Virus record (IMG/VR): IMGVR_UViG_3300030102_006903
Span: 1-64,000 of that record
Reading direction: 5' to 3' (one strand)
DNA: 64,000 nucleotides
Source of the DNA: a virus
Shown here piece by piece: positions 22,787-39,159 of the stretch. The notes under the pieces were generated by a model, which saw only the letters and a program-made list of their open reading frames with translations, was not told where the DNA came from and did not search any database. The first letter of the stretch is position 1. The number at the start of each line of letters is the position of its first letter. A program made the translations under genes and the position numbers.

Positions 22787-23431
22787 TTATATTTTGTTGA
22801 TTATATATTCGTACATCCTACTACCTATTTCTTCTCCTAATTTTGAATCTGATGGATAGTGTGCTCCTCCGATATTTCGTGAATAGGATATTCTTTTACC
22901 TGCTTCGATAAAGGCATTTGTTTTAATTGGTAACTTTGTTTGTAATACCTTTCCGATTAAAATACCTTGTGCAGAATGACCAGAAGGGTAAGAAGGGGTT
23001 TTCATACTTTCAAGTATATTCTCACCCAACTTAATATTGTAATATTTAGCAAGTTGATACGGTCTTGGTCTATTAAAGTGATATTTAAGTTCTAACATTG
23101 AGCATGATTTAATCATTTCTTCAACCAAATCTTTTGGAAATGTTAGGGCATGTTCTTTACATACTTCTTCAAATACAGCTGAGATATCATCATGTTTTTC
23201 TACAAAATCTTTATCCTCAGGTAAATCTCTAAGAAACTTTAATTCTTCTAAAGTTTTAAGTGAATGATTTGCAGGTGGTTTTTTGTGGAAATACTTTGAC
23301 ATATCAAAATCTCTGAATAATCCTTTCGTTTTGACATATTCTATTTTTTCGGCGTGTTTTTTCTTCATACCATCTTTTGAATAGACAGCATTTTTAATAT
23401 TACCGATATTTTCCAAAGTAAATATAAACAT
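22787..23431 (-). CDS. PAP2-family (type 2 phosphatidic acid) phosphatase
   Basis: 214 aa. All three phosphatase motifs are present: KYHFNRPRP, PSGHS, and SRNIGGAHYPSD. The family removes phosphate from lipids such as undecaprenyl-PP or phosphatidate, or from soluble phosphate esters. Here there is no convincing set of membrane helices, so it resembles soluble acid phosphatases. No signal peptide is evident. A TATATTTATA motif ends 5 nt before the start. Confidence 0.9.
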   Translation of the reverse strand: MFIFTLENIGNIKNAVYSKDGMKKKHAEKIEYVKTKGLFRDFDMSKYFHKKPPANHSLKTLEELKFLRDLPEDKDFVEKHDDISAVFEEVCKEHALTFPKDLVEEMIKSCSMLELKYHFNRPRPYQLAKYYNIKLGENILESMKTPSYPSGHSAQGILIGKVLQTKLPIKTNAFIEAGKRISYSRNIGGAHYPSDSKLGEEIGSRMYEYIINKI

Positions 23432-23829: not shown

Positions 23830-24330
23830 TTATTTTATAACCTCAAAGTTTTTAATTTGATAAGTATATTCATCATCTGCAATACCATAGTGAGGGTCAA
23901 CACCAAGGTACTCCACATATCCATACTCATCGTTATATTTAACATCTAGTGAATATGGAATACTTTTTAATTCATCCGCAACTAGAATAAATAACTGAGG
24001 AACAGTTTTAATCCATGGCCATCCTTTTGGTAAATCACCCCCAGCAACAACACTATCGTTAACTTTCATAATTCTGTTTTCTAAATCAACTTCAAGTACA
24101 TTCCAATTAGTTACTTTATCTTCACAGTAACATTCTTTTCTTTGTTCTAATTTATAGTGTTTTATTTCTGATACTCTCCATTTAGATTTTGCTTTATTTA
24201 AATCCATCATAGCAACTCTAAAAGGGGATGGTTCATACTCTTCAACTTCACAACTTACTAAACCTAGTAGAAATATAGAAGCCAAAAATAATATTGACCA
24301 TTTGATAATTTTGTTATATTCTTTTCTCAT
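23830..24330 (-). CDS. DUF6174-like lipoprotein
   Basis: 166 aa. Signal peptide with lipobox LGLVSC (Cys 27), so anchored to a membrane by lipid. The mature part has W(x)VSEIKHYKLEQ then CYCE, the pattern of DUF6174 (a conserved Trp, a helix, and a Cys pair). The family is common in bacterial lipoproteins and has no known role. Ends near the start of a 70-aa phage gene. Confidence 0.75.
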   Translation of the reverse strand: MRKEYNKIIKWSILFLASIFLLGLVSCEVEEYEPSPFRVAMMDLNKAKSKWRVSEIKHYKLEQRKECYCEDKVTNWNVLEVDLENRIMKVNDSVVAGGDLPKGWPWIKTVPQLFILVADELKSIPYSLDVKYNDEYGYVEYLGVDPHYGIADDEYTYQIKNFEVIK

Positions 24331-24435: not shown

Positions 24436-24780
24436 TTAATTTACTATGATATAAGTTGATTTTATCACTTCTAAGGGAGTTTCTAAGGTCAATAGTAGTT
24501 TGTTCTTAGGTAAAGATTTTGTGTAGATTTTACGAGTGTTTACACCTAATTGTGGTATAAAAGATTCTTTTGCAATTACAGATTTTGTTTCAATATCTGA
24601 TATAATTAACCAATGTCTTTCACTTGATGATAATTCAAAATTAATATCTTGGTTATCAATTACAATTGATTCTTGTTCTTGAAAAATAAATTTGTATTCT
24701 TGTGGAATAGCAATTTCTACTAACTCATCTTTTTGACAAGAAAGTAACAACAATAATATTAATACTAAGTACTTTTTCAT
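24436..24780 (-). CDS. Small lipoprotein
   Basis: 114 aa. Lipobox LLLLSC with Cys 15. The mature part is a beta-type single domain, ending in a hydrophobic strand. Its size and shape resemble the lipoprotein at 31932: each follows one of the two paralogous secreted proteins, so the pair looks duplicated as a unit. ATGA overlap with the 876-aa gene. Confidence 0.8.
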   Translation of the reverse strand: MKKYLVLILLLLLSCQKDELVEIAIPQEYKFIFQEQESIVIDNQDINFELSSSERHWLIISDIETKSVIAKESFIPQLGVNTRKIYTKSLPKNKLLLTLETPLEVIKSTYIIVN

Positions 24781-27407
24781 TTTATTTTTAACTCTATTTT
24801 TTCATTATCTTTATCAACCAATTCCATAAACCTTATACCAAATAATCCTAATGTAGATTGTAGGTTAGATTTTAATTTGAATTTTAATCTATAAGTAATA
24901 CCATTATTAAGGTTTTGTGAATCCTCAGATGTAAAAGAACCAACAGTAACATAATTACTTCTACCTGTGGCAAAGTTTGGAATCACTTCTGATGAAAATT
25001 CTGTTTCGTTATATTCTACTCTATCTTTATCAAAATAAATTTTAAATTGTGAACCAACTATATTTTTTTGATTTGATGGAATCGAAAGTTCTAAGGTAAT
25101 TTCATTTTCAATTCTATCAATATCAAATACTATACTACTATCAGTACGATTAAATGTGGGTGCAGATGAATATCTTACATCCATACTCGTTTCTTGTGCT
25201 GAGTTTGTTGTATAATTTGTAGGTTGTTTGGAATGTGAAAAATTAACATCACCTAATATTGCCATATTGTAAGTTTTACTTTGTGTTCTTTGACTGAATG
25301 AGGTACTTGGTACATAAGTTTTAGTTTTACCTCTCGGAACACTTGTTGACCAATCTGAAGTACTCCAACTATTATAATCACTTTCAAATAAAAGTACAAC
25401 ATCATCAAATGTATTTCCTTCAAATGGGTCTGTATCACCATAGATATGTTGCATCATTAATTGAGTATCTGTAAAATCAAATTTATTATCTTCGTTAACA
25501 TCAGATACTACATATTCAATACCAGTTGTATAGATACCACCACTACCACCAAATGGTCCACCACTACCTGGTGAAGTTAAATGAGAAAATGCTAATGCTA
25601 AATCTTGAACTGTTATAACATTTGCATATTGGTCTGAGTAATAAGTGTTATCAACTTCTAATAATAAATCGTGATTGATGTAACTTGTAACATCTACAAA
25701 TTCAAACTCTGCTTTGATTCCATATCCACCACCACCCATACTTCTAATATAAGATGAAAATGTTGAGTTAGAAAAATCAAGTTCTGTATCTGTATAAATC
25801 CAATATTCATTCCAATGAGTATCTGCATTATTGTTACCACTCTTTGGTGTTACTGCACCATCCCATAAATCAAATAATTTTAATTTAGTTACTTTATCCC
25901 AATCTGGTTGTTGATTTGTAAATTCTCTACTATCGATACCAACTCTGTATCTATTGTTTGTGTTATCATAAGCATAAATTACACACCATTCTACCGAACC
26001 ACCAGTTGTAGTTGCTTTCTTATTACCAGTATTTACTTGAGTAGAATAAACTCCACCACCATCATCATTATATGATACTTGTCCACTTGTTCCTAATGAT
26101 TCAGTTTTTGTACCATTTACTGTTCCATTATCATATTCTAACTTTGAACTAAATTTACTTTTATCTAAATCTGTATTTAAGTTATAAACAACATCTAATT
26201 TATGAGGAATACTTGCAGGACTAACACTCCATATTTCATCTTTGTTAAACTGATAATCAGAATCAGATGGTCTTTTCCATTTAAGATATAAATCTGCACC
26301 ACCAACTCCTTGTTCATATCGTACTCTAAATGAATAAACATTATCAGCAGTTAAACTAATATCAGCAGTTCTTGCTCCATTATTATAAGCCAAGTTAGTA
26401 TTTACCATATTTCCATCACTATTTGTATCAAAGAATAAATCACTTCTATCATCTGAATCTAATTGGAATGTGTAGGTACCTGTTTCTTCTGGTACAAATT
26501 TACCTTCTATCTCCCAACCGAAGTTGTTACTATTATGTCTTGGTAATTTTGATGAAGGCCAAGTAAATGCCTTTGTTGCGGTTTCTCTACCATAATGTGT
26601 CCACTCAGTAGTTTTCTTATTTGCATAATCAAACATATTATCAAAATCAGATGCATTTGCAGGATGAGCATTATATTCTGATTGGCCACCATTTGAATCA
26701 TAATCGTTTATTTTAAATGATTTGTAAATTACTGCATCTTGTCCATCACTAACCGCTGAAGAGAATGTTGGTGCTGATTGGACTGGAGTATAAGTAAAAT
26801 CTTGATATTCATAAGCATACATTGGGTCATAAACAGTATTGTTACTTTCTGTCATTCTACCCATTGTTACAACAATACCATCTGTATAATCTAAATTTGA
26901 ATCATAATCTTTTACTAATAGATTTACTTTTACATACCAATCGAGAGATGCTAAATTATTATTATTTGCACTTGCCTGATAATGGTCAATCCAAAAATTA
27001 GAATCAGTTGGATAAGAACCACCTTGAGACCATTGCATCCAAATATCATAATGTGGGTGATTGTTTGTAAAACTCATCTTTCTATTATCACCAATGAAGT
27101 GTGAAGTTCCATTAGCAGATGTATGAAACACATGATTTATTTTAGTGTACATTCTTTTATCATACTGAACATCAATGTGAGCATAAGTTATTGCGTTATT
27201 ATTTTTGTAATTGTGAATCTTGATACCCATTACTATTGTATCACCAGGTCTGATATTTGCTACTGATTCACTTGAGTTTGATGGAGTACCTAACCATACT
27301 AAAGTTGCCGCACCTTCACCATCAGCAACTTGTGATGAAGTTGGCCCACTAAACTGTCCGAATACCAAAGTTGGTAAAAGTAGTAATATTAATAAAAACT
27401 TTTTCAT
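24777..27407 (-). CDS. Large secreted protein: PA14 domain, dockerin-like and cohesin-like C-terminus
   Basis: 876 aa. Signal peptide ending LVFGQ. Residues about 55-200 are a beta domain. A PA14-like domain (about 270-400) contains FVPEETGTYTFQLDSDDRSD and GGADLYLKWKRPS; PA14 domains often bind glycans. Around 640-670 is a dockerin-like calcium repeat (DVNEDNKFDFTDTQLM). The C-terminal 150 residues (NIVGSQFKIYFDKDRVEY, VTVGSF) are cohesin-like. The C-terminal half is paralogous to the 554-aa protein at 33607. Likely exported to the cell surface or a fibre. No type IX C-terminal domain seen. Confidence 0.85.
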   Translation of the reverse strand: MKKFLLILLLLPTLVFGQFSGPTSSQVADGEGAATLVWLGTPSNSSESVANIRPGDTIVMGIKIHNYKNNNAITYAHIDVQYDKRMYTKINHVFHTSANGTSHFIGDNRKMSFTNNHPHYDIWMQWSQGGSYPTDSNFWIDHYQASANNNNLASLDWYVKVNLLVKDYDSNLDYTDGIVVTMGRMTESNNTVYDPMYAYEYQDFTYTPVQSAPTFSSAVSDGQDAVIYKSFKINDYDSNGGQSEYNAHPANASDFDNMFDYANKKTTEWTHYGRETATKAFTWPSSKLPRHNSNNFGWEIEGKFVPEETGTYTFQLDSDDRSDLFFDTNSDGNMVNTNLAYNNGARTADISLTADNVYSFRVRYEQGVGGADLYLKWKRPSDSDYQFNKDEIWSVSPASIPHKLDVVYNLNTDLDKSKFSSKLEYDNGTVNGTKTESLGTSGQVSYNDDGGGVYSTQVNTGNKKATTTGGSVEWCVIYAYDNTNNRYRVGIDSREFTNQQPDWDKVTKLKLFDLWDGAVTPKSGNNNADTHWNEYWIYTDTELDFSNSTFSSYIRSMGGGGYGIKAEFEFVDVTSYINHDLLLEVDNTYYSDQYANVITVQDLALAFSHLTSPGSGGPFGGSGGIYTTGIEYVVSDVNEDNKFDFTDTQLMMQHIYGDTDPFEGNTFDDVVLLFESDYNSWSTSDWSTSVPRGKTKTYVPSTSFSQRTQSKTYNMAILGDVNFSHSKQPTNYTTNSAQETSMDVRYSSAPTFNRTDSSIVFDIDRIENEITLELSIPSNQKNIVGSQFKIYFDKDRVEYNETEFSSEVIPNFATGRSNYVTVGSFTSEDSQNLNNGITYRLKFKLKSNLQSTLGLFGIRFMELVDKDNEKIELKIK

Positions 27408-27408
27408 A

Positions 27409-27939
27409 TTATTTATCTTTATCTAATCTGAAATAAATTGATGCTCCTACATAAGGTCTCAATTTACTTGTCATGGTTTCTCTATCTAATAAATCGTTTC
27501 TGAATCCTACATCCAATCCAAACATTTTATCACCAGGTGCCTTGTAAAGTAGTTTTACATTTGAACCACTAAAGTAGTTATCTAAATCATATTGATATCC
27601 AAATCCTAAAAATAATTTTTTCTGAGGTGGTGCTAAAACTTCAACGATAGTTTCATATGGTTTATCTACATAAACTGTTTTGATTACCTCTATGGGTTTT
27701 TCTACTATTACTTCTTTAATTACTTCAACTTCCTTTTCTACTTCCTTAGTAATATACTTTGGTACAAATACTTTTTTCTCTACAAGTTTTTCAACATAGA
27801 TACTATCTATTACGGTCTGAAGAACTTCTATTTCTTTTATTTTTTCTACTTCTTCAATTCGTGGATTTGTAAATAAGAATATTACTCCTGCAAGTAAAAC
27901 TCCAATGATTATTGATTTAAATGTTTCTATTTTTTTCAT
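27409..27939 (-). CDS. Envelope-spanning protein: membrane anchor, Val/Glu/Lys/Pro stalk, beta C-terminus
   Basis: 176 aa. An N-terminal membrane helix (about 8-24) is followed by an extended stalk of EVxK/VEKP units (about 28-105), then a beta-rich end (LFLGFGYQYDLDNYF to YVGASIYFRLDK) like a short outer-membrane segment. The shape could bridge inner and outer membrane, as spanins or TonB-like stalks do. SD AGGAG, 6 nt before ATG. Function not proven. Confidence 0.7.
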   Translation of the reverse strand: MKKIETFKSIIIGVLLAGVIFLFTNPRIEEVEKIKEIEVLQTVIDSIYVEKLVEKKVFVPKYITKEVEKEVEVIKEVIVEKPIEVIKTVYVDKPYETIVEVLAPPQKKLFLGFGYQYDLDNYFSGSNVKLLYKAPGDKMFGLDVGFRNDLLDRETMTSKLRPYVGASIYFRLDKDK

Positions 27940-27948
27940 ATCTCTCTC

Positions 27949-29841
27949 CTAAAAGGGTAACTTTGCTCCTATCATAAACGAATTCATAATTGGAACAAAC
28001 TCATTACTACTATAAATTATTGTCCAACCTGCATTGAACGAAAATGATTTTGTTAATTGTATTGTGAAAGTATTTGCTAAAATACCTATTACATCTTTAC
28101 TTGTTGTTGCCATAGCTTCAAATCCTGGCATTGCTTCTGTATAAGAAATTGGTGATTGTGCAAATACGATTGCTGGTGTGTAAATAATTCTATCATTTAC
28201 TTTTACCATATTAGTATAAAGTGCATTATATCCTAATGACCACATCTGAGGCATTTCCTCACCAAAATTATCTTTTCCAAACATATATGAATAACTTATA
28301 CCAACTCCAACTGTTCCCCATTTACCCATTGGTTTCATCCTACTTGCTGCAGCTGTAATTGAATTCATATTCCAGTTTCTCATATATGTTAAGTTTTGTG
28401 CATCTACCCAAGTTACTTGGTAGTTATCATTCATTCTTAATTTAGAAGTACCTATTCCTAAACTACCTTGTTTTAGATTATCATAAATCTGTAAGGTTGC
28501 AGTATTTGTTCTATCACCAAATATAGAAGTTTGTGAAGCACCTATATTGAGTACAGAATTATATTTTAATGTTAATGCTTGTTGTTGTAAAAAATCTGCC
28601 TTAAGTTGAATAGGTAAATATTTTTTTTCTTCTTCTTCCTCTTCCTCTTCCTCTTCTTCATCACTATCTTCTTCCTCTTCTTCCTCTTCTTCCTCTTCTT
28701 CTTCATCCTCTTCCTCTTCTTCATCTTCTTCTTTTTCTTCTTCTTCCTCTTCCTCATCACTTTCTTCCTCATCTTCTTCTTTTTCTTCTTCATCTGATTC
28801 TTCATCTTTTTCTTCTTCATCAGAATCTTCATCGCTATCATCATCAGAATCATCACTATCATCATCACTATCATCATCTCCATCCGAGTCATCATCTCCA
28901 TCAGAGTCATCATCGCCATCTGAATCATCTCCATCGGAATCATCATCACCATCGGAATCATCCCCATCCCCATCGCTATCTCCATCTGAATCATCTCCAT
29001 CGCCATCTGAATCCCCATCACTATCTCCATCGGAATCACCATCGGAATCACCATCACTATCTCCACCATCACCATCGGAATCACCGTCTGAATCTCCTCC
29101 TCCATCGGAATCAGAATCCCCATCAGAATCTCCACCACCATCAGAGTCGGAATCACCACCACCATCGGAATCAGAATCACCTCCTCCATCACCAGAGTCT
29201 CCTCCACTATCTCCATCGGAATCTCCTCCGCTATCTCCACCAGAGTCTCCTCCACTATCTCCACCACTATCACCACCAGAGTCTCCTCCGCTATCTCCAC
29301 CAGAATCACCTCCACTATCGGAGCCATTTCCTCCACTATCGGAACCGCCTGAATCTGAACCACTTCCTCCACTATCAGAACCACTCCCTCCACTATCAGA
29401 ACCGTTTCCACTTCCTCCACTATCGGAACCACCTGATGAACCACTGCCACTTGAATCAGAACCACTTCCACTTGAACCACTACTTCCACTAGAACCTGTG
29501 TTACCTGTGTTACCAGATGTGTTGTTGGTATTATTAGTTGCGTTATTTGCGGTATTAGTTGCGTTTGTGGCGTTAGTTTGAGCTGATGAACAAGGGGAAA
29601 GTGCTTGCCACCATGCATATTTTTGTACTAACCATTGTTGTAAAGTACCATTTAGATATTCTTGGTAAGTAAATAATTTTGCTTCATTATAGAAAGCAAC
29701 GATTGCAGAACCTGATGCGAAGTTAGCGGATACCACTTGGACTTCACCAGTACATCTATCAACAAATGTCTGTGTAAATTGCTGGGAGTAACTAAAGTTA
29801 GTTACAAACAGAAAAAATAAAATCGATAGTAGTTTTTTCAT
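27949..29841 (-). CDS. Outer-membrane-type protein with giant Ser/Gly/Asp/Glu linker
   Basis: 630 aa. Signal peptide ending FSYSQ, then a small N-terminal domain (20-84) with two Cys (30, 84). Residues about 86-405 are low complexity with a gradient: Asn/Thr, then SGS, then GGDS, DSDGD, DDSD, and finally almost pure Glu. The last 225 residues form repeated aromatic beta strands ending in Phe, typical of an outer-membrane barrel. The linker resembles calcium-binding Asp-rich repeats. It probably sits in the outer membrane with the linker in the periplasm or outside. Lies just downstream of the CsgG-like gene. Confidence 0.8.
   Translation of the reverse strand: MKKLLSILFFLFVTNFSYSQQFTQTFVDRCTGEVQVVSANFASGSAIVAFYNEAKLFTYQEYLNGTLQQWLVQKYAWWQALSPCSSAQTNATNATNTANNATNNTNNTSGNTGNTGSSGSSGSSGSGSDSSGSGSSGGSDSGGSGNGSDSGGSGSDSGGSGSDSGGSDSGGNGSDSGGDSGGDSGGDSGGDSGGDSGGDSGGDSGGDSDGDSGGDSGDGGGDSDSDGGGDSDSDGGGDSDGDSDSDGGGDSDGDSDGDGGDSDGDSDGDSDGDSDGDSDGDGDDSDGDSDGDGDDSDGDDDSDGDDSDGDDDSDGDDDSDGDDDSDDDSDDSDDDSDEDSDEEEKDEESDEEEKEEDEEESDEEEEEEEKEEDEEEEEDEEEEEEEEEEEEDSDEEEEEEEEEEEKKYLPIQLKADFLQQQALTLKYNSVLNIGASQTSIFGDRTNTATLQIYDNLKQGSLGIGTSKLRMNDNYQVTWVDAQNLTYMRNWNMNSITAAASRMKPMGKWGTVGVGISYSYMFGKDNFGEEMPQMWSLGYNALYTNMVKVNDRIIYTPAIVFAQSPISYTEAMPGFEAMATTSKDVIGILANTFTIQLTKSFSFNAGWTIIYSSNEFVPIMNSFMIGAKLPF
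28627..29586 (-). repeat. Acidic low-complexity tandem codon repeat
   Basis: In-frame degenerate repeats encoding GGDS, DSDGD and poly-Glu units in the 630-aa protein. On the plus strand they appear as CCATCGGAATCA-like and TCTTCCTCT-like arrays. The copy number is likely variable through slippage. Confidence 0.85.
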
Positions 29842-29846
29842 TCATG

Positions 29847-30566
29847 TTAATTCTCAAAGATACCCTTTCTTATCATTCTTGCTACTATTCTCGCTGATGC
29901 GGTTTCCAACGCTTTTCTGGTAGTTACTCCAATTGCTGATTGTCTGAAGTTTATTTCCTCCAAATCTAACCCCAGCAAACCCTCTTGAGTCTTAACTGTA
30001 TTTGCTTCTCCTAGACCAGAACCTACAAAGTAAGTACCATTCTCTGCGTTAGTAAACCTAACTTGTAATCCCAAACGAGTTGTTTGTGTTTGTTTAGAAC
30101 CATCTTTTAAAGATAAAACTTCATCTTCTGAAACTGAAAAATCATAAATTTCTATTGTAACAAAATACTTTGCCAACATGATTTTTCCAACACCATAAAC
30201 TTCGTTTTGTGAAACTCCTTTTCTTGAAGCAACCCATTGAGTTTTCATTCTATCTTTTATTTCATCCTTTTCTTCAACAAATTCAAATCGGTTTGTCCAA
30301 TCTAAATACTCGATTACCATATTAGTAACCCCTAAACCAATTCTTGCATCTTTTAAATCTGGCCACATTTCGTAAACCACATCAGATGCTGAAATGTTGA
30401 TTAGTGCTATTGGAATAGTTTCACCCCAATAATCTGAAACATCATCGATAGATTTCTTTTTTTCAAATTCTGCTTGATATTTCTCTGCTTCTATTTTACC
30501 CACTGTCTGCGAGTATCCGAACTGAGAAACGAACAATAACAAAATAATAAGAATTTTATTTGTCAT
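29847..30566 (-). CDS. csgG: CsgG-like secretion pore protein
   Basis: 239 aa. The pattern matches CsgG: a helix-strand start, GVTNMVIEYLDWTNRFEFVE, AKYFVTIEIYDFSV, GLQVRFTNAENGTYFVGSG (the membrane hairpin and following strand region), and a C-terminal ETASARIVARM helix. CsgG forms the nonameric outer-membrane channel that exports curli subunits. Here the signal peptide ends FGYSQ and lacks the lipobox Cys that anchors classical CsgG. Marine T4-like phages are known to carry csgG homologues. No CsgA/CsgB-type repeats are seen in this window. Confidence 0.78.
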   Translation of the reverse strand: MTNKILIILLLFVSQFGYSQTVGKIEAEKYQAEFEKKKSIDDVSDYWGETIPIALINISASDVVYEMWPDLKDARIGLGVTNMVIEYLDWTNRFEFVEEKDEIKDRMKTQWVASRKGVSQNEVYGVGKIMLAKYFVTIEIYDFSVSEDEVLSLKDGSKQTQTTRLGLQVRFTNAENGTYFVGSGLGEANTVKTQEGLLGLDLEEINFRQSAIGVTTRKALETASARIVARMIRKGIFEN

Positions 30567-30663
30567 CTTTTTTCATATGTTTTGTAAGTTCAGGATAAAA
30601 TTGAACAAAAAAGTTATCAATTTTATCAATCACTTTAATTAATATTTTTTTTAAGTTTTTCAT
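30556..30663 (-). CDS. Small basic peptide (35 aa)
   Basis: 35 codons from ATG 30663 to TAA 30556-30558, overlapping the csgG start. Lys-rich amphipathic helix (KNLKKILIKVIDKIDNFF). It could associate with the membrane. ATGA coupling with the 31-aa gene supports it. Confidence 0.5.
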   Translation of the reverse strand: MKNLKKILIKVIDKIDNFFVQFYPELTKHMKKDDK

Positions 30664-30755
30664 AGTTGTAATACGATAATAAAAATTACAAATAGAATAC
30701 AACTAAAAAGTATTCCATAGCAACATTTATCTACCGCGTCAATAAAATTTTTCAT
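30660..30755 (-). CDS. Membrane micropeptide (31 aa)
   Basis: 31 codons from ATG 30755 to TGA 30660-30662. One hydrophobic helix (GILFSCILFVIFIIVLQL) after a CC pair. Overlaps the next start as ATGA. Confidence 0.5.
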   Translation of the reverse strand: MKNFIDAVDKCCYGILFSCILFVIFIIVLQL

Positions 30756-30757
30756 AT

Positions 30758-30949
30758 TTAACAACAATAATCAAAAATACCAAATGTGGCATTCTGAACA
30801 TCTGCTTCACCTGATATAAATCCATACATCAAAGTTGTGAAACCAACAACAAATAATCCTATTAAACCAAATATCCATATTTTAAAGATATAGTCTAAAA
30901 TTACATAATCAGATAATTTGTCTTTCCAAATCTGTACTAAAACATTCAT
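30758..30949 (-). CDS. Small membrane protein (63 aa)
   Basis: 63 aa with a central hydrophobic region (about 22-46, IWIFGLIGLFVVGFTTLM) and a C-terminal CC. SD AGGAG is present but 10 nt from the ATG. Part of a run of four small membrane proteins ahead of csgG; they may form one complex or include a holin. Confidence 0.7.
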   Translation of the reverse strand: MNVLVQIWKDKLSDYVILDYIFKIWIFGLIGLFVVGFTTLMYGFISGEADVQNATFGIFDYCC

Positions 30950-30972
30950 AATATAATCTCTCCTAATTTAAA

Positions 30973-31215
30973 TTAACTGTGAGTTTCTTTTACCGATTTC
31001 GGTAATCGCCAACCCATTCTTCTCATAATCCAAGCCCAAAGTCCACCTAACATAAAGAATTGTACAACAAATCCTAATGCTAACCAACTTGAGACCTCAT
31101 CGCCTACTCTCATTCTATCAGAGAAAACATACCCATAAACATTCAAATAAACTATTATTGAAATAAATCCTACCGGTTGTCCCCATGTCCTACACCATTT
31201 TTTAAAACGATTCAT
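30973..31215 (-). CDS. Small two-helix membrane protein (80 aa)
   Basis: 80 aa with two membrane helices (about 14-31 and 42-66) and basic ends (MNRFKKWCRTWG; MRRMGWRLPK). A perfect SD AGGAGG lies 5 nt before the ATG. The topology fits a holin or accessory membrane protein. No family recognised. Confidence 0.75.
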   Translation of the reverse strand: MNRFKKWCRTWGQPVGFISIIVYLNVYGYVFSDRMRVGDEVSSWLALGFVVQFFMLGGLWAWIMRRMGWRLPKSVKETHS

Positions 31216-31238
31216 ATTAACCTCCTATTCGTTTAATG

Positions 31239-31544
31239 TTACCAATCAATTTCTTCTTCTTTTTCTTTTTTCTTCTCAACTGGTACTTCTTTAACAATTA
31301 CTTTTTCTTTTACTGGTTGTTGTTCTGGTATGTTTACAACTATTGTTGGTCCTTCCACATTTACCGATTGATTGTTTTCTTGAACAACCTCAGTTTGTGG
31401 ATTTGATTCATCATCTCCAATACCAATAAAAGATTTTACTTCATCAATAAACATCGTACCAAGTGCAGTTAGTATTACACCAACTGCAGCTATGATTTGA
31501 TTTTTTAGTTGTGAGAAGAAACTTTCTTTTTTCTTTTTTGCCAT
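31239..31544 (-). CDS. Inner-membrane protein with Val/Glu/Lys/Pro periplasmic tail
   Basis: 101 aa. Lys-rich start, one membrane helix (about 15-33), then an extended tail with EKVIVKEVPVEKKKEKEEE, similar in composition to the stalk of the 176-aa protein. It could interact with that stalk or reach the outer membrane. SD AAGGAG, 6 nt before ATG. Confidence 0.75.
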   Translation of the reverse strand: MAKKKKESFFSQLKNQIIAAVGVILTALGTMFIDEVKSFIGIGDDESNPQTEVVQENNQSVNVEGPTIVVNIPEQQPVKEKVIVKEVPVEKKKEKEEEIDW

Positions 31545-31554
31545 CTTAATCTCC

Positions 31555-31932
31555 TTATTCTACAACGAATGATTCGTTACCTAATACATTATGATAATCA
31601 TCAGTAAGTTGAATCATGTACGCTGATTTTTCTAAAGATGCAACATATACCTTTAGTATATTATCACCTTCTTTTACTTCTAATCTCTCTTGTGAGATTA
31701 ACTCATTGTTTAATCCATGTCTGATTTTGATTCTGTAAGTACCTGCTTCAGGTAATTTAACATTCATGGATACTCTATCTGAAACGATAGTGTTTTCTAA
31801 CTTGATACCAACTAAATCTTTGATAACCAAAGTTTCAGGTACCTCTTGGTTAGGGTCTACCATGATGAAATCTTCATCTTTTGCACATCCTAAGATAAAC
31901 AATAAACTAAATAATATTAATAATTTTTTCAT
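31555..31932 (-). CDS. Lipoprotein with Ig-like beta domain
   Basis: 125 aa. Lipobox LFILGC (Cys 16), then acidic linker and an Ig/fibronectin-like beta domain (about 40-125) with TYRIKIRHGL and SAYMIQLTD. Strong SD AAGGAG. It follows the 554-aa secreted protein just as the 114-aa lipoprotein follows the 876-aa one, suggesting each lipoprotein anchors its partner. Confidence 0.8.
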   Translation of the reverse strand: MKKLLILFSLLFILGCAKDEDFIMVDPNQEVPETLVIKDLVGIKLENTIVSDRVSMNVKLPEAGTYRIKIRHGLNNELISQERLEVKEGDNILKVYVASLEKSAYMIQLTDDYHNVLGNESFVVE

Positions 31933-31942
31933 TTTTTTCTCC

Positions 31943-33607
31943 TTATTGTATTATAAATTTAATTTGAGTACCATCTGCTTTAACACCCTCTTTTACTCTA
32001 AATGAAATCAAGCCCGATGTATTTTGAATAGCTTCATTTGGGGTAAAGATTAATTTATAAGGTGTTCCTTGTTTTACAGTTGCATCAAAGTTTTGGTCAA
32101 ATGAACCAACTCTTACTTTTCCTTCTTCAACAATGTTTGCGAAGTTTGTCATTGTATTACCAGTATCAAAGATGACATCATCTAATGTTAAAATACTTGG
32201 GTCATATACAATATTAAATTGTGAACCTACCATCTCAGCAATTTGTGAATTGATTGAGAAGATGACTTGTCCATCTTTAATTTCAGATACTAAATCTATG
32301 TTTGCAGTTTCTGCGTTATTAAATTTAGTACCAGGTGCCATTGAAACTCTATATTGTGAACTAACATTCTGAGCTGAAGATGTTTTTGCTCCACTAGATA
32401 CTGATGGTTCATATGAATGAGAGAAGTTAACATCACCTCTTAAACCATGTGCTACATTAACAATTTTTGAGTTTGAATCTGAATCAATTGGTGTAAATGT
32501 ATTTGCGAATGTTACTGCGTTATTTACATATGCACCATATGTTTCTTTAATACCACTATATTCATGTACTGTTCCTGCTTTTGTGATATAATTTGTATTT
32601 CCACTTGTTACACCTTGTAGGTAAGCAAGTATTTCATAAGAATCTTGGAAATCTACTTTGTTATCTGTTCCAACAACATCAGCGATAATATCTTGTATGT
32701 AGTAATCAAATGTAGTTGAACCACCACTTGGACCAGAACCTGCTCCAATTGCCTCAGCGAATACTAATGCTAAATCTGCAACAGTTACAACCTCACCTAA
32801 ATACTCAGGTAAATCTGAAATAGAAACTGATATATTATATTGTATGTTATTTTCTAAACCACTAACTACTGCTTGACCTGATGCATCAAAATCACCACTA
32901 GCTTTTGTTTCTCCTGCACCATTTTTGATAACATAAGAATAATCTGTTCCATCAGATACATTGTTATCTAAAAGTTTTGATGATAGGTTTAAGGTAACAT
33001 TACCTGCATTACCACCTTCCAATCCATTTAAATCGATATCTGAGGTTGGTCTACCTACTTGTATTTGTGTTCCATCTGCTTTTTTATAGTTTGCCCAATT
33101 CACTTTTAATATGTTATCCCATGAATCATAATTTGTACCGAATTTATCTTTGATGATAAATCTGTAAACTATAATCTGGTCTCCATCTGTATATGCTGCT
33201 GAAGTTTGTGCTGTGATTCTTTCTACACTCCAATCTGCTGAAGTTGAGTAGGAGTTGTTTCCTGCTTCATCTCTCCACCAAATATACTGAACATCCATAT
33301 CTGATTCAGATGTGTTTGCTTTTGGGTTAAACTTATATCCACTCCAATTGTTTCTTGCTTTAGAAGCACCACTTGGGGTTTTCCAACTTATGTCTAAGAA
33401 ACTCATAAGTTTGTTATTGTATTCAAAATCGAATTGGAGTAGTGTTGCTGCTCCTTCATCTTTTTTTGCATACTTAAATTCCACCGATAGTGTATCACCA
33501 ACTTTAGTAACAGTATTGACTGTACCATATTGTATCTCCGATGGGTCTTGTCCGAATGAAGTTAGTGTAAAAAGAACACCAACTAATAATGATAAAAATT
33601 TCTTCAT
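31943..33607 (-). CDS. Large secreted protein with dockerin-like and cohesin-like regions (paralogue)
   Basis: 554 aa. Signal peptide ending TSFGQ. N-terminal beta domain with EGAATLLQFDFEYNN, also cohesin-like. A dockerin-like segment lies near 310-335 (VVGTDNKVDFQDSYEIL). The C-terminus has RGDVNFSHSYEP, VGSQFNIVYDPSILTLDDV and VRVGSF, each with a counterpart in the 876-aa protein. No PA14 domain. Cohesin-dockerin pairs self-assemble through calcium, so the two proteins may form a surface fibre or mat. Likely substrates of the CsgG-like pore or of Sec alone. Confidence 0.82.
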   Translation of the reverse strand: MKKFLSLLVGVLFTLTSFGQDPSEIQYGTVNTVTKVGDTLSVEFKYAKKDEGAATLLQFDFEYNNKLMSFLDISWKTPSGASKARNNWSGYKFNPKANTSESDMDVQYIWWRDEAGNNSYSTSADWSVERITAQTSAAYTDGDQIIVYRFIIKDKFGTNYDSWDNILKVNWANYKKADGTQIQVGRPTSDIDLNGLEGGNAGNVTLNLSSKLLDNNVSDGTDYSYVIKNGAGETKASGDFDASGQAVVSGLENNIQYNISVSISDLPEYLGEVVTVADLALVFAEAIGAGSGPSGGSTTFDYYIQDIIADVVGTDNKVDFQDSYEILAYLQGVTSGNTNYITKAGTVHEYSGIKETYGAYVNNAVTFANTFTPIDSDSNSKIVNVAHGLRGDVNFSHSYEPSVSSGAKTSSAQNVSSQYRVSMAPGTKFNNAETANIDLVSEIKDGQVIFSINSQIAEMVGSQFNIVYDPSILTLDDVIFDTGNTMTNFANIVEEGKVRVGSFDQNFDATVKQGTPYKLIFTPNEAIQNTSGLISFRVKEGVKADGTQIKFIIQ

Positions 33608-34119
33608 AATAATAAATCCTTAATAATTTGTTCACATAGTTTTTTCAACGCTATGCTCGCCGTTTGTTGATTAAATGTTCCGTCCTCTGCAACTACAAGG
33701 GTTGAAGTAGAAATTGTTCTACTCGTTCCTTTTTGAGTAGTTCTTTTTCTGACTTTACCATTGACTTCAAGTTCACCAATTGCTATAATCTGCGTTAGTG
33801 AAACATTGTTATGGAATACAGCAATGCTGGTTCCTTTATTTTTAATATCAAAAAAGACTAAACGAACATTAATTTGTTGATTCGCTTGGTCTGATAAATC
33901 ATAATCTAAATCTAAGAGAAGTTCTTCGAGAATATTTTTTACACCGATTGTAAGATTTCGGTTACCTGCAAACTTACCCATACGAATTTCGTTGGTAACT
34001 TCGCCGACCTTAATTAGGTTTTGGTCGTCTTGATGTATCTCATTGGTAGAACCATTTGGTAGTAACACTAAGATACACAAAACGAATATTTTAAATACAT
34101 TTAGTGTAGCTAATTTCAA
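33604..34119 (-). CDS. YajG/CsgG-like exported protein
   Basis: 171 aa. Start is TTG 34119, with SD AGGAG six bases before. Signal-like hydrophobic N-terminus (about 8-22). The core contains GNRNLTIGVKNILEELLLD and INVRLVFFDIKNKGTS, an alpha/beta pattern similar to CsgG and YajG-type outer-membrane assembly proteins, ending in a helix. No lipobox. As the first gene of the cassette, it may be a periplasmic partner of the pore. Confidence 0.7.
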   Translation of the reverse strand: MKLATLNVFKIFVLCILVLLPNGSTNEIHQDDQNLIKVGEVTNEIRMGKFAGNRNLTIGVKNILEELLLDLDYDLSDQANQQINVRLVFFDIKNKGTSIAVFHNNVSLTQIIAIGELEVNGKVRKRTTQKGTSRTISTSTLVVAEDGTFNQQTASIALKKLCEQIIKDLLL

Positions 34120-34245: not shown

Positions 34246-34270
34246 AAAGTAAAAATAGTTTTTTTACTTT
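34246..34270 (-). terminator. Hairpin at the end of the sugar operon
   Basis: Perfect 10-bp arms AAAGTAAAAA/TTTTTACTTT (34246-34255 and 34261-34270), loop 5 nt, overlapping the stop codon of the last glycosyltransferase gene. No T-run follows on the minus strand, so termination is probable but not certain. Confidence 0.5.
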
Positions 34271-35157
34271 ATTTTTTTGAGTTCCTCACCAAAATTGGAT
34301 TCAGCAATTTTTTTAAACTCTTCTCTTCTATCATAAACTGATATATGATTTAAGTAGTGAGAATTGTTACGATATTTATAGTTTTCACAAACTACGAGGT
34401 TTTTTATTTTGAATTGGTTTACTTTGACACCAAACTCTTCAACGAGTTTTTCAGATGCCCACATTACAAATGTATCTTCGTAACCATAATGCCCAAATGA
34501 TTGGGGAACACCAATTCTATTAAGAAGTTTTCCACTAATACAAGTAAACCAACCACCTGCAAATTTAAATCTTGGTTGCCCATAAAAGTTATTTGTAACT
34601 CCTCTTACTATAATATCACCTTTAACACCTGAATCTTTGTAGGGGTCATTTGTTTTTTGGTAGTTAACTTTTTCAAGTAAGAAATTATCATTAACAAGAC
34701 AATCCCATGTATCATCCCAAATTTTAACAATCTCTGGTGTTATTATAGAGTTTGGAAAACTTTGATTAGTTGATTTCATAGCGTTTTCCAAATAAGATAA
34801 AGTTCTTTCATCAAATATAATATCTGTATCTAACCAAATGAAGTAATCAGCATCTCTATGTTTTTCAAATGAGAATCTTCTCTGTGAAACACAACCTAAT
34901 ATTTTTTCAGATGTTTGAAAGTTTTTTACACACCAATCTGTATTTGATGCTAATTTTAAAAATTTATCTTCAAAATATTTTTTATTGATTGATGATTTAT
35001 CCCAATTGACCATTTCAGATGAAGTACACATTGTAACATCTAAATTCCAATCTAATGATTTATCAATATAATATGATGCTTTTTTGAGTTGATTTAGAGT
35101 ATTTTCTAACTCATCAATTTCATATGGTAAACAAAAAATAGATATTACAATTTTCAT
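34264..35157 (-). CDS. Glycosyltransferase, GT-A type
   Basis: 297 aa. Rossmann-like start (KIVISIFCLPYE), then FIWLDTDIIFDE with the metal-binding DTD at 110-112, as in GT-A enzymes. It would transfer a sugar from a nucleotide donor. Last gene of the operon, ATGA-overlapped with its neighbour. No membrane helix; cytoplasmic. Donor and acceptor unknown. Confidence 0.8.
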   Translation of the reverse strand: MKIVISIFCLPYEIDELENTLNQLKKASYYIDKSLDWNLDVTMCTSSEMVNWDKSSINKKYFEDKFLKLASNTDWCVKNFQTSEKILGCVSQRRFSFEKHRDADYFIWLDTDIIFDERTLSYLENAMKSTNQSFPNSIITPEIVKIWDDTWDCLVNDNFLLEKVNYQKTNDPYKDSGVKGDIIVRGVTNNFYGQPRFKFAGGWFTCISGKLLNRIGVPQSFGHYGYEDTFVMWASEKLVEEFGVKVNQFKIKNLVVCENYKYRNNSHYLNHISVYDRREEFKKIAESNFGEELKKIK

Positions 35158-35972
35158 GAATATTTTTTTTCTATAAATTCTTTGAATTGTGGAATCCTAT
35201 CGTATTGATGCACTAATGGAAATACTTCTCCTTTTTGATTTGTAACGATATAATTTTCATCAACATTTGGTGTAGGTTCTAGTAACACATTTTTAAATTT
35301 TTCTTTATTTACCAAAACAGTACCCAATTGTGTTACGAATCCTTCTTCTTGTTCAACTTTTTGTACAATATTTTTAAATTGTTTTAAATTAATAAGAATA
35401 TTATATGCTGCCTGGTCTGCAAGTTGTTCTTTATTTGCTGTTGTCATACTCCATCTGTAAATATCAATAAATAAATCTCTTAGATATTCAGCGTTTCCTA
35501 CAATAGTTCCTGCACAATATGAAGTTTTATTTTGTAACCATTCCCATTCCATAGGAAAAGATGTTCCACTATTTACACACGCCCAAGGGTCATCTTTAAA
35601 AGTAATTGATTCTGAGAATGAAAGTATCTCACCATCCATATTTGCTTCTATCCATTCAGATGGGTCTTTTTGAAATATAATATCCTTTACATCAGTCCAT
35701 ATAACTGTTCCTTTTATTTCAGAACCAAGTAGTTTGTATAAATCTCTAAATCTTTGAAGGATTATATGTTGTTGAAGTTCTCCTCCATATAAATCCCATC
35801 CTTTTGATTTAAGATAATCAATAGTTTCTTGTGGTACTTCATATACCAACATTACTTTTCTACCATCAAACCCACATCTATCAATAGATTCAACATAAGG
35901 TCTAATGTCATCAGGTGAATATTTTGTTATACACCCTAAAATTGTTTTTTGGAAACTCGTTGGGTTTATCAT
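35154..35972 (-). CDS. Glycosyltransferase-like protein (TDxxD)
   Basis: 272 aa. Contains VIWTDVKDIIF (TDVKD at 93-97), a variant of the DxD motif seen in GT-A families, with YCAGTIVGN further on. Soluble. Overlaps both neighbours by 4 nt. The family is often seen in marine phage sugar operons; specificity is unknown. Confidence 0.7.
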   Translation of the reverse strand: MINPTSFQKTILGCITKYSPDDIRPYVESIDRCGFDGRKVMLVYEVPQETIDYLKSKGWDLYGGELQQHIILQRFRDLYKLLGSEIKGTVIWTDVKDIIFQKDPSEWIEANMDGEILSFSESITFKDDPWACVNSGTSFPMEWEWLQNKTSYCAGTIVGNAEYLRDLFIDIYRWSMTTANKEQLADQAAYNILINLKQFKNIVQKVEQEEGFVTQLGTVLVNKEKFKNVLLEPTPNVDENYIVTNQKGEVFPLVHQYDRIPQFKEFIEKKYS

Positions 35973-36730
35973 AATTTTACTAATTCTGGTTGTTTACATC
36001 CTGTCAATATTTCAAATTCTTCAAAGTTAGGTACTTCCCACAACTCACATAATTTTGTATTTTGAATAATTTCATATCCACCTAACATCATTATATATTG
36101 AAATAAAAAATCTTGCCATCCATAAATTTTATTTATTTTACAAAACTCATCAAACTTTTCTGTATATAAATCTAAAGTTCTTTCGTATGCATCAATATAT
36201 TGTTCTCTGTTAAAGATAGTTCCTCCACCACTTGCATAACCTGGACATGAATCCACACCTCCTACTGATTTAGAATATTCTAAAAATTGGTTAGGAATAG
36301 TATTTGGTCTCATTCTACCTGTTGGTGATGGTGCAGTTGGGTGAATTGCCATTGAGAAATCAAAATTTAAAATACTAATCGTATCTAATATAAAATCATC
36401 TTCTTCAAATAACATCATGTATTTTGAATCTGTTTTCTTACAGGCATTGTAAACACCTGTTAACCATTCTACTGCTTTCTCTTTAGTCCAATGTTCGTAT
36501 CCAATATCCCTATCACCAAAGTTACCACAATATCCTAACTGAAAGTTATTACGAGTAACAGTTGCTCCTAACTCTTCACCAACTTTTTGATATCCTTCTA
36601 AATCACCTTCATAATCTACATTGATAAAAAGGTCAGCATCAGAATAAAACTTCCTAAGAGTTTGCATAGATTTCTTACCTGCTTCGGTTTCTCTCCATGC
36701 CCACCAATAACCACTTATTAATTTACTCAT
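35969..36730 (-). CDS. Glycosyltransferase-like protein (EEDD)
   Basis: 253 aa. YMMLFEEDDFIL (EEDD at 109-112) corresponds to the metal-binding acidic motif of GT-A folds, preceded by a GVYNACKK helix. C-terminal part has GWQDFLFQYIMMLGGYE. Overlaps its neighbours by 4 nt. Specificity unknown. Confidence 0.7.
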   Translation of the reverse strand: MSKLISGYWWAWRETEAGKKSMQTLRKFYSDADLFINVDYEGDLEGYQKVGEELGATVTRNNFQLGYCGNFGDRDIGYEHWTKEKAVEWLTGVYNACKKTDSKYMMLFEEDDFILDTISILNFDFSMAIHPTAPSPTGRMRPNTIPNQFLEYSKSVGGVDSCPGYASGGGTIFNREQYIDAYERTLDLYTEKFDEFCKINKIYGWQDFLFQYIMMLGGYEIIQNTKLCELWEVPNFEEFEILTGCKQPELVKL

Positions 36731-37362
36731 AATTTTTCGAAATAACCACCAACTTTGAATTTAACATTTGCAGTAACACTACCTTTATCAGATGTTTTGA
36801 ACTTATCAGGATGTACTATCCTAAAATCAATTGAACATCTTGTATCTTTTTCTTCATTAGTTTGATTACCATGTAAAAGATTTGGTCCACTAAACACCAA
36901 AATTTCACCATAGGATACATCGTAACCTTTGAAATCTTCTTTTCCTTCTTCTGATTCCATCCATATGGTATTCGTTCCATACGCATCAGTAAATGGTAAC
37001 CATAAGTTAATCTCATCTACTCCATGATTGTAATCTCTATCTCTGTGCCATTCACCAACTCCTAAGTTATCAACTTGATGAACTCTGAATGTAGGAATCT
37101 TTTGATAAATAATTTCATCATACTCAAAGTGAGGTTTTACAAACTCTTCTATAAATTGTTTGTACAATGGATAAAACTCTTCTTTAAATTTATCATAATA
37201 AGTTTTATGCCACATTGTAGCCTGGTCTGTTGGTTCAGTATATCTTTCATACTTTTTAACCTCATGTAAATTCTCTAAACTTTTTTCACCTAAGATTTTT
37301 TTTATCAAAGGTCTGAATTGATACTTTGATGTATCGTATTTAATTTTATGTGTTTTTATCAT
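36727..37362 (-). CDS. 2OG-Fe(II) oxygenase-like (StrG/phytanoyl-type)
   Basis: 211 aa. EWHRDRD (H106, D108) and LLHGN (H164) give the iron facial triad, and R175 (TRCSIDFR) would bind 2-oxoglutarate. The long GEILVFSGPNLLHGN stretch resembles StrG and related sugar-modifying oxygenases. It probably hydroxylates a sugar or nucleotide sugar in the operon pathway. Confidence 0.78.
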   Translation of the reverse strand: MIKTHKIKYDTSKYQFRPLIKKILGEKSLENLHEVKKYERYTEPTDQATMWHKTYYDKFKEEFYPLYKQFIEEFVKPHFEYDEIIYQKIPTFRVHQVDNLGVGEWHRDRDYNHGVDEINLWLPFTDAYGTNTIWMESEEGKEDFKGYDVSYGEILVFSGPNLLHGNQTNEEKDTRCSIDFRIVHPDKFKTSDKGSVTANVKFKVGGYFEKL

Positions 37363-38033
37363 TCTGTTCTTTCTAATTTATATAAATTATTGTTTACTGC
37401 TGATTTAAATTCTTCATCCATCCATACAACATCATCTTCACCAACTTGATTTACCATTGGTAAATATAAGTTATGCATACCTGAATTTACTCCATGTGGT
37501 GGATTGGTTTCCATTTCAATTACTGCGTTATAAAAGGATTCTAACATTGAATGTGGGAATACTATAAATGTATCATTCACAATTGGTAAATCCATAAACT
37601 CAGGTTCTCTCCAAAGAAAACTACATTTTGTAAAATCATAATTGTATTCTTCAAATGGATTCTTAAAAAAGTTTATATCATATCTTGTTGATATAACTAA
37701 ATCTAAATCCTCATCCTTAAGTTGTTGTAAACTATTTAGATATGAAACTGTCATTATTTTCATACCATTTGATACTTTATCACCACCACCTAATTTATTA
37801 TAACCAGGTTCTACAAATGTATGTTTTATTGCTGGTGAATAATCTTCAATTATTTTATCTTGTTTTTCATTACTATAACTAAAAAGATAAAATTTTATAT
37901 CATGTCCATTTTCTCTTAATGGATTTACAACATTTTTATAAAAGTTTTGTATTGAGTTTTCATAATCTCTCAATCTACCACCTTCAATAGCATTGTTATA
38001 AGATACTCCTACTAAATTAATTCCTATTTTCAT
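37359..38033 (-). CDS. Glycosyltransferase-related protein (RYDI family)
   Basis: 224 aa from ATG 38033, which overlaps the previous stop as ATGA; a longer start adds residues inside that gene. VISTRYDINFF carries the same RYDI motif as the following protein, so the two are relatives. Motif position fits the acceptor/metal site of a GT-A fold. Specificity unknown. Confidence 0.7.
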   Translation of the reverse strand: MKIGINLVGVSYNNAIEGGRLRDYENSIQNFYKNVVNPLRENGHDIKFYLFSYSNEKQDKIIEDYSPAIKHTFVEPGYNKLGGGDKVSNGMKIMTVSYLNSLQQLKDEDLDLVISTRYDINFFKNPFEEYNYDFTKCSFLWREPEFMDLPIVNDTFIVFPHSMLESFYNAVIEMETNPPHGVNSGMHNLYLPMVNQVGEDDVVWMDEEFKSAVNNNLYKLERTE

Positions 38034-38740
38034 TTTACATCTTCTGGCCACCAAACTTTATCATCTCTAAGTAAGTTAAAGTTGATTCCATCGTGTTTTA
38101 TTGCGTTATCATATAATTGTATTCTATGTAAATACTTCGTAAAGTTTTGTTCAGCACCATCCATAATTCCTTGTTCTCTATTATAATTTACAATATTATC
38201 AAATATTGTTGGAAAAACTTTATCTGAGTTTTCTTGATTAGACATATAAAAATTATCATCATGTATTGGACTGTTAGGCCAATGACTATTTGATGTATAA
38301 ATTTTTGTTAAATCATAATCACTTAATTCTAAATTAGAACCAGCAATATCATATCTACTTCTTATAATACAATCATATTTAATATTTGATTCTTGTATTT
38401 TTTTATAAGTTTCTTGCCAACCATACAACATTGGAAATGCTCTGAAGTTACTAAATACATCAAAATCTGTTAGTGGTCTTGATTTATCATCTCTTGGTGT
38501 TTTAATACCTTCTCTGTACTTAGTAAACTTAATTGGTTTCTGTATATTAATGTATTTAGGATTTGGATAAACTTTTAAAACATCATCACTATCTTCATTA
38601 TTTGTTATTTCATCAGGTTTAGATTCCCATGCATGAAGATACAAATCTACATCATTATTATCTATAATGTATTTCCAATAACCATCATAACCTTCTTGAA
38701 CTTTTCGTGCAAGACCAGTTAACATTAATGCTACTTTCAT
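38030..38740 (-). CDS. Glycosyltransferase-related protein (RYDI family)
   Basis: 236 aa. Begins MKVALMLTGLARKVQEGY, then CIIRSRYDIAGSNL. This start and motif occur in a family of phage and bacterial proteins next to polysaccharide genes. Paired with its relative at 38033, possibly acting in successive steps or as a heterodimer. Confidence 0.7.
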   Translation of the reverse strand: MKVALMLTGLARKVQEGYDGYWKYIIDNNDVDLYLHAWESKPDEITNNEDSDDVLKVYPNPKYINIQKPIKFTKYREGIKTPRDDKSRPLTDFDVFSNFRAFPMLYGWQETYKKIQESNIKYDCIIRSRYDIAGSNLELSDYDLTKIYTSNSHWPNSPIHDDNFYMSNQENSDKVFPTIFDNIVNYNREQGIMDGAEQNFTKYLHRIQLYDNAIKHDGINFNLLRDDKVWWPEDVK

Positions 38741-39159
38741 TTCTTGTAAACCATTTTTAAATATTTTCTACCTCTTCTTAAACCACTCTCACCTGTTTCA
38801 ACAAATCCTAATTCTTCGTATAACTTTTTTGCATGATTATCTTCAAAAACCCAAAGGTCTGCATAATCTTTATCCTCTAAATACTTTGTATATGCTGCTC
38901 TTGCATATCCTTTTCTACGAAAATCAGGATGTATATCACATCCAATCTCATCACCATTGATTCTAATGTACCCAACCTCTTCATTATTTTCATTATAAAT
39001 CATTAACCATTGTGGTTTCATTTTTTCAAACCAATCTTCACATTCATCTAAAGTAAATGCACTATCATTTTTTAATTGAGTACGAGTTGATTCTTCATTC
39101 CTTACTAATAGTAGGAATCTTAAATTATTTTCTTTTAATGGTTCTAATCTTATTTCCAT
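38737..39159 (-). CDS. GNAT-family N-acetyltransferase
   Basis: 140 aa, one GNAT domain. The acetyl-CoA site is IGCDIHPDFRRKGYARAAY (R/Q-x-x-G-x-A variant), and the last strand NHAKKLYEELGFVETG is typical. It follows the aminotransferase gene, an order used to make N-acetylated amino sugars (as in PglD/WecD-type pathways). Confidence 0.88.
   Translation of the reverse strand: MEIRLEPLKENNLRFLLLVRNEESTRTQLKNDSAFTLDECEDWFEKMKPQWLMIYNENNEEVGYIRINGDEIGCDIHPDFRRKGYARAAYTKYLEDKDYADLWVFEDNHAKKLYEELGFVETGESGLRRGRKYLKMVYKK

Follow-up and report, generated by a model that had tools for sequence, protein, structure and literature searches.

A conserved phage cassette that appears to place a cohesin/dockerin-like scaffold on the surface of infected Bacteroidota cells

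What use would a virus have for two secreted proteins with cohesin- and dockerin-like regions, each followed by its own small lipoprotein? The question is raised by record IMGVR_UViG_3300030102_006903, of which positions 1 to 64,000 are the window. The record has 113,373 bases and encodes ~133 genes, with few exceptions on the same strand, and is a virus of Bacteroidota-type bacteria. Outside the 64-kb window it has matches to tail sheath, tape measure, baseplate, tail-fibre, ribonucleotide reductase and DnaB helicase, which identify it as a contractile-tailed phage. Ten of the 13 signal-peptide genes of the whole record, called by a simple rule rather than a dedicated program, sit within the 12 kb around the genes in question (~22-34 kb; P = 6e-9).

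These genes belong to a conserved cassette which appears to place a cohesin/dockerin-like scaffold on the infected-cell surface, together with a CsgG-type pore and a sorting domain, which is fused to the scaffold in some systems and a separate lipoprotein in others, including this one. As an overall explanation we lean towards a module that the virus encodes for surface display on Bacteroidota cells, with the two scaffolds as its presumed cargo half. A preliminary description of the locus had recognized the duplication and the cohesin-like fold, but missed the CsgG-fold unit, the viral nature of the genome and the relation of the lipoproteins to type IX secretion system (T9SS) domains.

Two paralogous secreted scaffolds

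All cassette genes described below lie on the minus strand, with positions given in the window. As had been proposed, the 876-aa protein (24777-27407) and the 554-aa protein (31943-33607; family F1) are secreted paralogues, aligned by BLASTP with 32% identity over 292 aa (E = 7e-18). This similarity is restricted to the C-terminal halves, whose alignment had been named beforehand as the refutation test and is significant. Both proteins do have the shared motifs in one common order, which differs slightly from the one first given: the dockerin-like stretch (residues 598-647 in the 876-aa protein and 274-322 in the 554-aa protein) precedes GDVNFSHS (719 and 391), which is followed by VGSQF (784 and 460) and then by VGSF (822 and 500). 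Given that the pattern GD[VAIL][ND]x[ST][HG] is found in 101/101 scaffold family members, it constitutes a family signature; a GDVNFSHS-type motif alone is not a full EF-hand loop.

Alignment and a structure model give the layout of the 554-aa protein as a signal peptide, a cohesin-like module, a CnaB/FN3-like module, three helices in the dockerin position, the GDVNFSHS module and a C-terminal cohesin-like module. Model confidence in this study is modest (pLDDT 55 and 69), and the scaffold model, with a pLDDT of just 55, was hence used for fold class only. With this model, Foldseek ranks cohesin modules and scaffoldin structures of the cohesin/X-dockerin type first in the PDB (E = 1e-7, prob 1.0). 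Pfam Cohesin is matched in 10/13 aligned orthologues of this protein (best 6.5e-8) and, at E 0.01, by 29 of 50 diverse scaffold members (best 8e-13); neither of the window's own scaffolds passes as a single sequence. The relatives and the structure search together support the cohesin-like fold previously suggested. The 876-aa protein additionally contains a PA14/GLEYA domain, which proved to be real (residues 292-383; Pfam 3e-11, above the cut-off). The T9SS C-terminal sorting domain is absent from both window scaffolds.

A calcium repeat had been ascribed to both proteins. It stands for the 876-aa protein, which has one canonical dockerin loop (DVNEDNKFDFTD), where a type I dockerin would have two calcium-binding loops with helices, but not for the 554-aa protein, which has no canonical loop, the corresponding stretch being degenerate. 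Across the family, a canonical dockerin loop is present in 58/101 scaffold members, versus 0.55 in shuffles, and Pfam Dockerin_1 matches seven of the 50 diverse members. No other dockerin loop was found in the 113-kb record, and a Pfam dockerin search of the record returned nothing. Relatives have lectin partners which carry dockerin loops (16/19 and 16/16); these are the dockerin-bearing partners seen, with no enzymes among them, and no lectin partner was found in the window's own record. For the lectin partners, as for the 876-aa protein, dependence on calcium is plausible; in the 554-aa protein no canonical loop supports it. The calcium-driven self-assembly earlier proposed as possible would thus find a canonical loop in just one of the two window scaffolds.

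The CsgG-fold protein and the cassette across relatives

The 239-aa exported protein (family F0; 29847-30566) has no lipobox, and the top 20 Foldseek matches of its model are all CsgG (best E = 7e-8), which makes it a probable outer-membrane channel. The CsgG assignment is one of predicted fold only: relatives of the protein have no match to Pfam CsgG even at E 10, single-sequence profile comparison failed to yield a CsgG identity, and sequence-profile searches of the PDB with the 239-aa and 171-aa families were uninformative. The 171-aa exported protein (F3; 33604-34119) is a short CsgG-like homologue of the former (hhalign 96.7%, E = 4e-10). The remaining members include a 101-aa protein (F2; 31239-31544) that has a single membrane segment at its N-terminal end and a tail of low complexity, a topology read from the sequence rather than predicted by a program; an 80-aa small membrane protein (F16; 30973-31215; 16 loci); a 63-aa small protein (F14; 30758-30949; 19 loci); and a 176-aa membrane-anchored protein (F11; 27409-27939; 23 loci). 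Finally, a 630-aa exported protein (F4; 27949-29841; F4 HMM E = 2.9e-142) has a short N-terminal domain, a very long S/D/G/E-rich low-complexity linker and conserved ends, and its C-terminal region may resemble an outer-membrane barrel. A 348-aa open reading frame overlapping this gene (28572-29618) is apparently a by-product of the low complexity.

A relative of the 239-aa protein is encoded by 413 viral contigs, the best 80 of which were retained. The comparison covered 88 distinct loci anchored on the 239-aa gene. A scaffold with the Coh-CnaB-Doc-Coh arrangement occurs in 87 of these 88 loci, F2 (~105 aa) in 86, F3 (~157 aa) in 80, and the low-complexity F4 (~500 aa) in 71. The families, their synteny and their model-based folds are established; the contigs reach up to 434 kb. 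The cultured Flavobacterium phage vB_FspM_immuto (NC_055915; Flavobacterium sp. LMO8) has the same arrangement in gp013-gp019, with gp017 as the CsgG-fold protein. Its scaffold is split at the GDVN motif into gp014 and gp015 (L017:11598-13422), the second half having its own signal peptide; gp015 scores above the Pfam cut-offs for Cohesin as well as for a T9SS sorting domain, and the C-type lectin gp013 carries a dockerin loop. Hence, the cassette is common to immuto and the window, but immuto differs in its split scaffold, its lectin and its lack of a separate lipoprotein.

Scanning bacterial genomes with the scaffold returned no relative, and with the 239-aa family two metagenome-assembled genome (MAG) contigs; in the 395 phylum-level and 399 family-level genomes sampled, the only match to the 239-aa family was one of these two MAGs, and a plasmid scan found none. 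Hence, no bacterial parent operon was found in these scans.

Several further genes were also observed, those of the window all on the minus strand. A PAP2-type phosphatase (22787-23431; Pfam 2.5e-8), conserved in 12 loci, lies just outside the cassette, and a DUF6174 lipoprotein (23830-24330; Pfam 3.6e-21), which had no counterpart among the related loci first compared, adjoins the 114-aa lipoprotein discussed below. Glycosyltransferase-like genes and an aminotransferase beside the cassette (34264-40349) are candidates for modifying the secreted scaffold or the surface of the host. Further away, a complete 902-aa open reading frame (57979-60687) resembles a TonB-dependent outer-membrane receptor, with a carboxypeptidase-regulatory-like start, plug, barrel and aromatic C-terminus; this reading was judged by eye, and the PHROG match of the protein is of unknown function. 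A DNA/RNA non-specific endonuclease (Pfam 1.1e-25) is near the cassette in 10 loci, including a copy with a signal peptide in immuto (L017:9935-10513), and is away from it in the window's own record (record positions 87105-87875); it could be relevant to superinfection exclusion.

One sorting domain per system

Each window scaffold is directly followed by a lipoprotein, as originally described: the 876-aa gene overlaps that of the 114-aa lipoprotein (24436-24780) by 4 nt, and a 10-nt gap separates the 554-aa gene from that of the 125-aa lipoprotein (31555-31932). The former, however, falls outside the interval 24777-33607 initially assigned to the pair of units. The two lipoproteins (family F9) are homologous (BLASTP E = 0.002), and the two halves of their family align with hhalign 99.1%. 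With both scaffolds and lipoproteins paralogous to each other, duplication of a unit of secreted protein plus anchor is supported. In agreement with this, the number of scaffold genes equals that of lipoprotein genes in 28 of 36 loci scored as having untailed scaffolds, a set that includes three loci with a diverged fused tail and three with a diverged adjacent lipoprotein.

The body of these lipoproteins was compared with T9SS sorting domains, which Pfam finds in 22 of the 50 diverse scaffold members. Against the T9SS tails of fused phage scaffolds, the F9 lipoproteins match with hhalign 93.1% (E = 3.3e-7), while column shuffles and other cassette families reach at most 1.3%. Against 20 bacterial sorting domains from two Bacteroidota MAGs, the F9 lipoproteins of all loci match with hhalign 94.6% (E = 6.6e-8), while shuffles reach at most 2.6%; one control, a slice of tailed scaffolds apparently reaching into the beginning of the tail, gave 25.8% over 6 columns, and all other non-shuffle controls were below 1%. 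As judged by profile comparison, the window lipoproteins are detached homologues of the T9SS C-terminal sorting domain.

Across 87 loci, the sorting domain is fused to the scaffold in 51, is on a split cohesin protein in two, and is an adjacent separate lipoprotein in 34, so that each locus has it in exactly one way, with no overlap and none missing. Automatic scoring alone left 6/87 loci without a sorting domain, which on inspection had a diverged fused tail in three cases and a diverged lipoprotein in the other three. One locus that apparently had both states was rejected, since its lipoprotein itself weakly matched the tail HMM. Gene order reflects the same division: an untailed scaffold is directly followed by an F9 lipoprotein in 41 cases, and a tailed scaffold directly by F2 in 47/48. 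Complementarity of this kind classically points to the fusion or fission of genes whose products work together. On the tree of the 239-aa protein, swapping fused tail and lipoprotein needs at least about 3 changes, so independent replication of the swap is thin; given the loci are related, a Fisher test over them (P = 3e-16) is not counted as evidence.

The idea that the lipoproteins act as anchors is also strengthened, and made more specific, by their N-termini. Both fit C-x-K-(D/E)2 after the lipobox (CAKDED in the 125-aa and CQKDEL in the 114-aa protein), the optimal surface-export signal defined in Capnocytophaga canimorsus (PMC5080379). The broader motif Cx[KRQ](D/E)2 is present in 22/35 F9 lipoproteins, versus 2/40 other lipoproteins of the same loci. 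Loss of the host T9SS does not obviously explain the lipoprotein form, since T9SS (SprA) is also encoded by a MAG that contains a cassette contig of the lipoprotein type. It is possible, though we put this forward tentatively, that the sorting domain works in trans, i.e., detached, on a surface lipoprotein which captures or guides the scaffold, as a free-standing partner in a new virus-encoded surface scaffold.

Proposed function and relation to known systems

In the surface-display reading, both scaffolds would be exported by Sec, and the 239-aa CsgG-fold channel, its 171-aa partner and the small inner-membrane protein would serve their export or placement. The sorting domain would hold each scaffold at the cell surface. 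Since a T9SS C-terminal domain is fused to the scaffold in most relatives, those would use the host T9SS; in the window virus, a separate sorting-domain lipoprotein with a surface-export signal would dock the scaffold instead. Cohesin/dockerin-type contacts would join scaffold copies into a coat, into which the dockerin-bearing C-type lectin of many relatives may also be linked. We infer the surface location, the docking of scaffold and lipoprotein, the formation of a coat and its purpose, the likely role being remodelling of the infected-cell surface: the coat would most likely alter what the infected cell binds or is infected by (superinfection exclusion or adhesion). Points against this reading are the modest model confidence, the missing lipobox of the 239-aa protein and the failure of its relatives to match Pfam CsgG, the degenerate loop of the 554-aa protein, the lack of a lectin partner in this record, the few changes of state on the tree and the T9SS of the MAG with a lipoprotein-type cassette.

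The main rival is a lysis module: the CsgG-fold protein, together with its small membrane partners, would disrupt the outer membrane at lysis, with the scaffold as a trigger or a structural plug. It owes this place to the GH19 endolysin and holin-like proteins with two membrane segments whose genes, in many relatives (e.g., L060:6371-9945, L099, L100), fall inside the cassette or adjoin it, and the same role was put forward for phage CsgGF in Melnitz (PMC9004378). Nevertheless, no relative of those endolysin and holin-like families was found in the 64-kb window, the annotated endolysin of immuto is ~8 kb from the cassette, and lysis leaves the T9SS tails, lectins, PA14 domain and surface-export signals unexplained; we therefore consider it unlikely.

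Less probable still is a curli-like (type VIII) system with the scaffold replacing CsgA as the substrate of the CsgG-fold pore. The predicted fold of the 239-aa protein agrees with it, and pelagiphages are known to carry curli loci (PMC9599517). However, cassette families reach at most 1.6% in hhalign against E. coli CsgE and CsgF, and no CsgA/CsgB amyloid repeats were seen on reading the cassette. Folded multidomain proteins, such as these scaffolds, are hard to pass through a curli-type pore, and the T9SS tails offer an alternative route. Finally, although glycan binding would fit the PA14, C-type lectin and cohesin-like modules, and the laminin-G part of a lectin partner matches some virion proteins of other phages, virion-associated adhesins (i.e., scaffold and lectins decorating the particle) are the most improbable reading, given that the signal peptides, T9SS tails and lipoboxes indicate export out of the cell and that >60 kb separate the cassette from the start of the recognized virion tail genes.

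Returning to surface display, phage CsgG loci and phage T9SS cargo have each already been published (PMC7029224, PMC9599517, PMC9004378, PMC7468147). The type VIII loci of pelagiphages and OM43 phages encode CsgGF with or without CsgA/B (PMC7029224, PMC9599517, PMC9004378), and resemble the present cassette in that the phage encodes an outer-membrane protein of CsgG type within a conserved block of several genes. They differ in having recognizable CsgG/CsgF of alphaproteobacterial affinity, whereas here CsgG is identified by fold only, CsgF is absent and the partner is a cohesin/dockerin-like scaffold. Cryophage likewise encodes T9SS cargo (Bellas et al. 2020, PMC7468147), with type A sorting domains that include one on a PA14 protein; its cargo consists of variable enzymes, whereas here a single conserved scaffold is accompanied by a CsgG-fold partner, and the sorting domain also occurs in lipoprotein form. 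As in cellulosome scaffoldins, cohesin-like and dockerin-like modules are combined with an X/CnaB-like module, yet no dockerin-bearing enzymes are seen, the calcium loop of the 554-aa protein is degenerate and the origin is viral. The window lipoproteins resemble Bacteroidota surface lipoproteins (PMC5080379) in their C-x-K-(D/E)2 signal after the lipidated cysteine, but not in their body, which is a T9SS-sorting-domain homologue. In the literature, we found no report of phage cohesin/dockerin scaffolds with a CsgG-fold partner, nor of a T9SS sorting domain as a lipoprotein, in a search whose incomplete coverage makes this no proof of novelty.

Widespread among viruses, the cassette appears to remodel the outside of infected Bacteroidota cells, and it joins three export themes in one locus: CsgG, T9SS and surface lipoproteins. 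It also offers a natural test of whether a T9SS sorting domain is able to function once separated from its cargo, and much of the proposal is testable in the cultured phage immuto.
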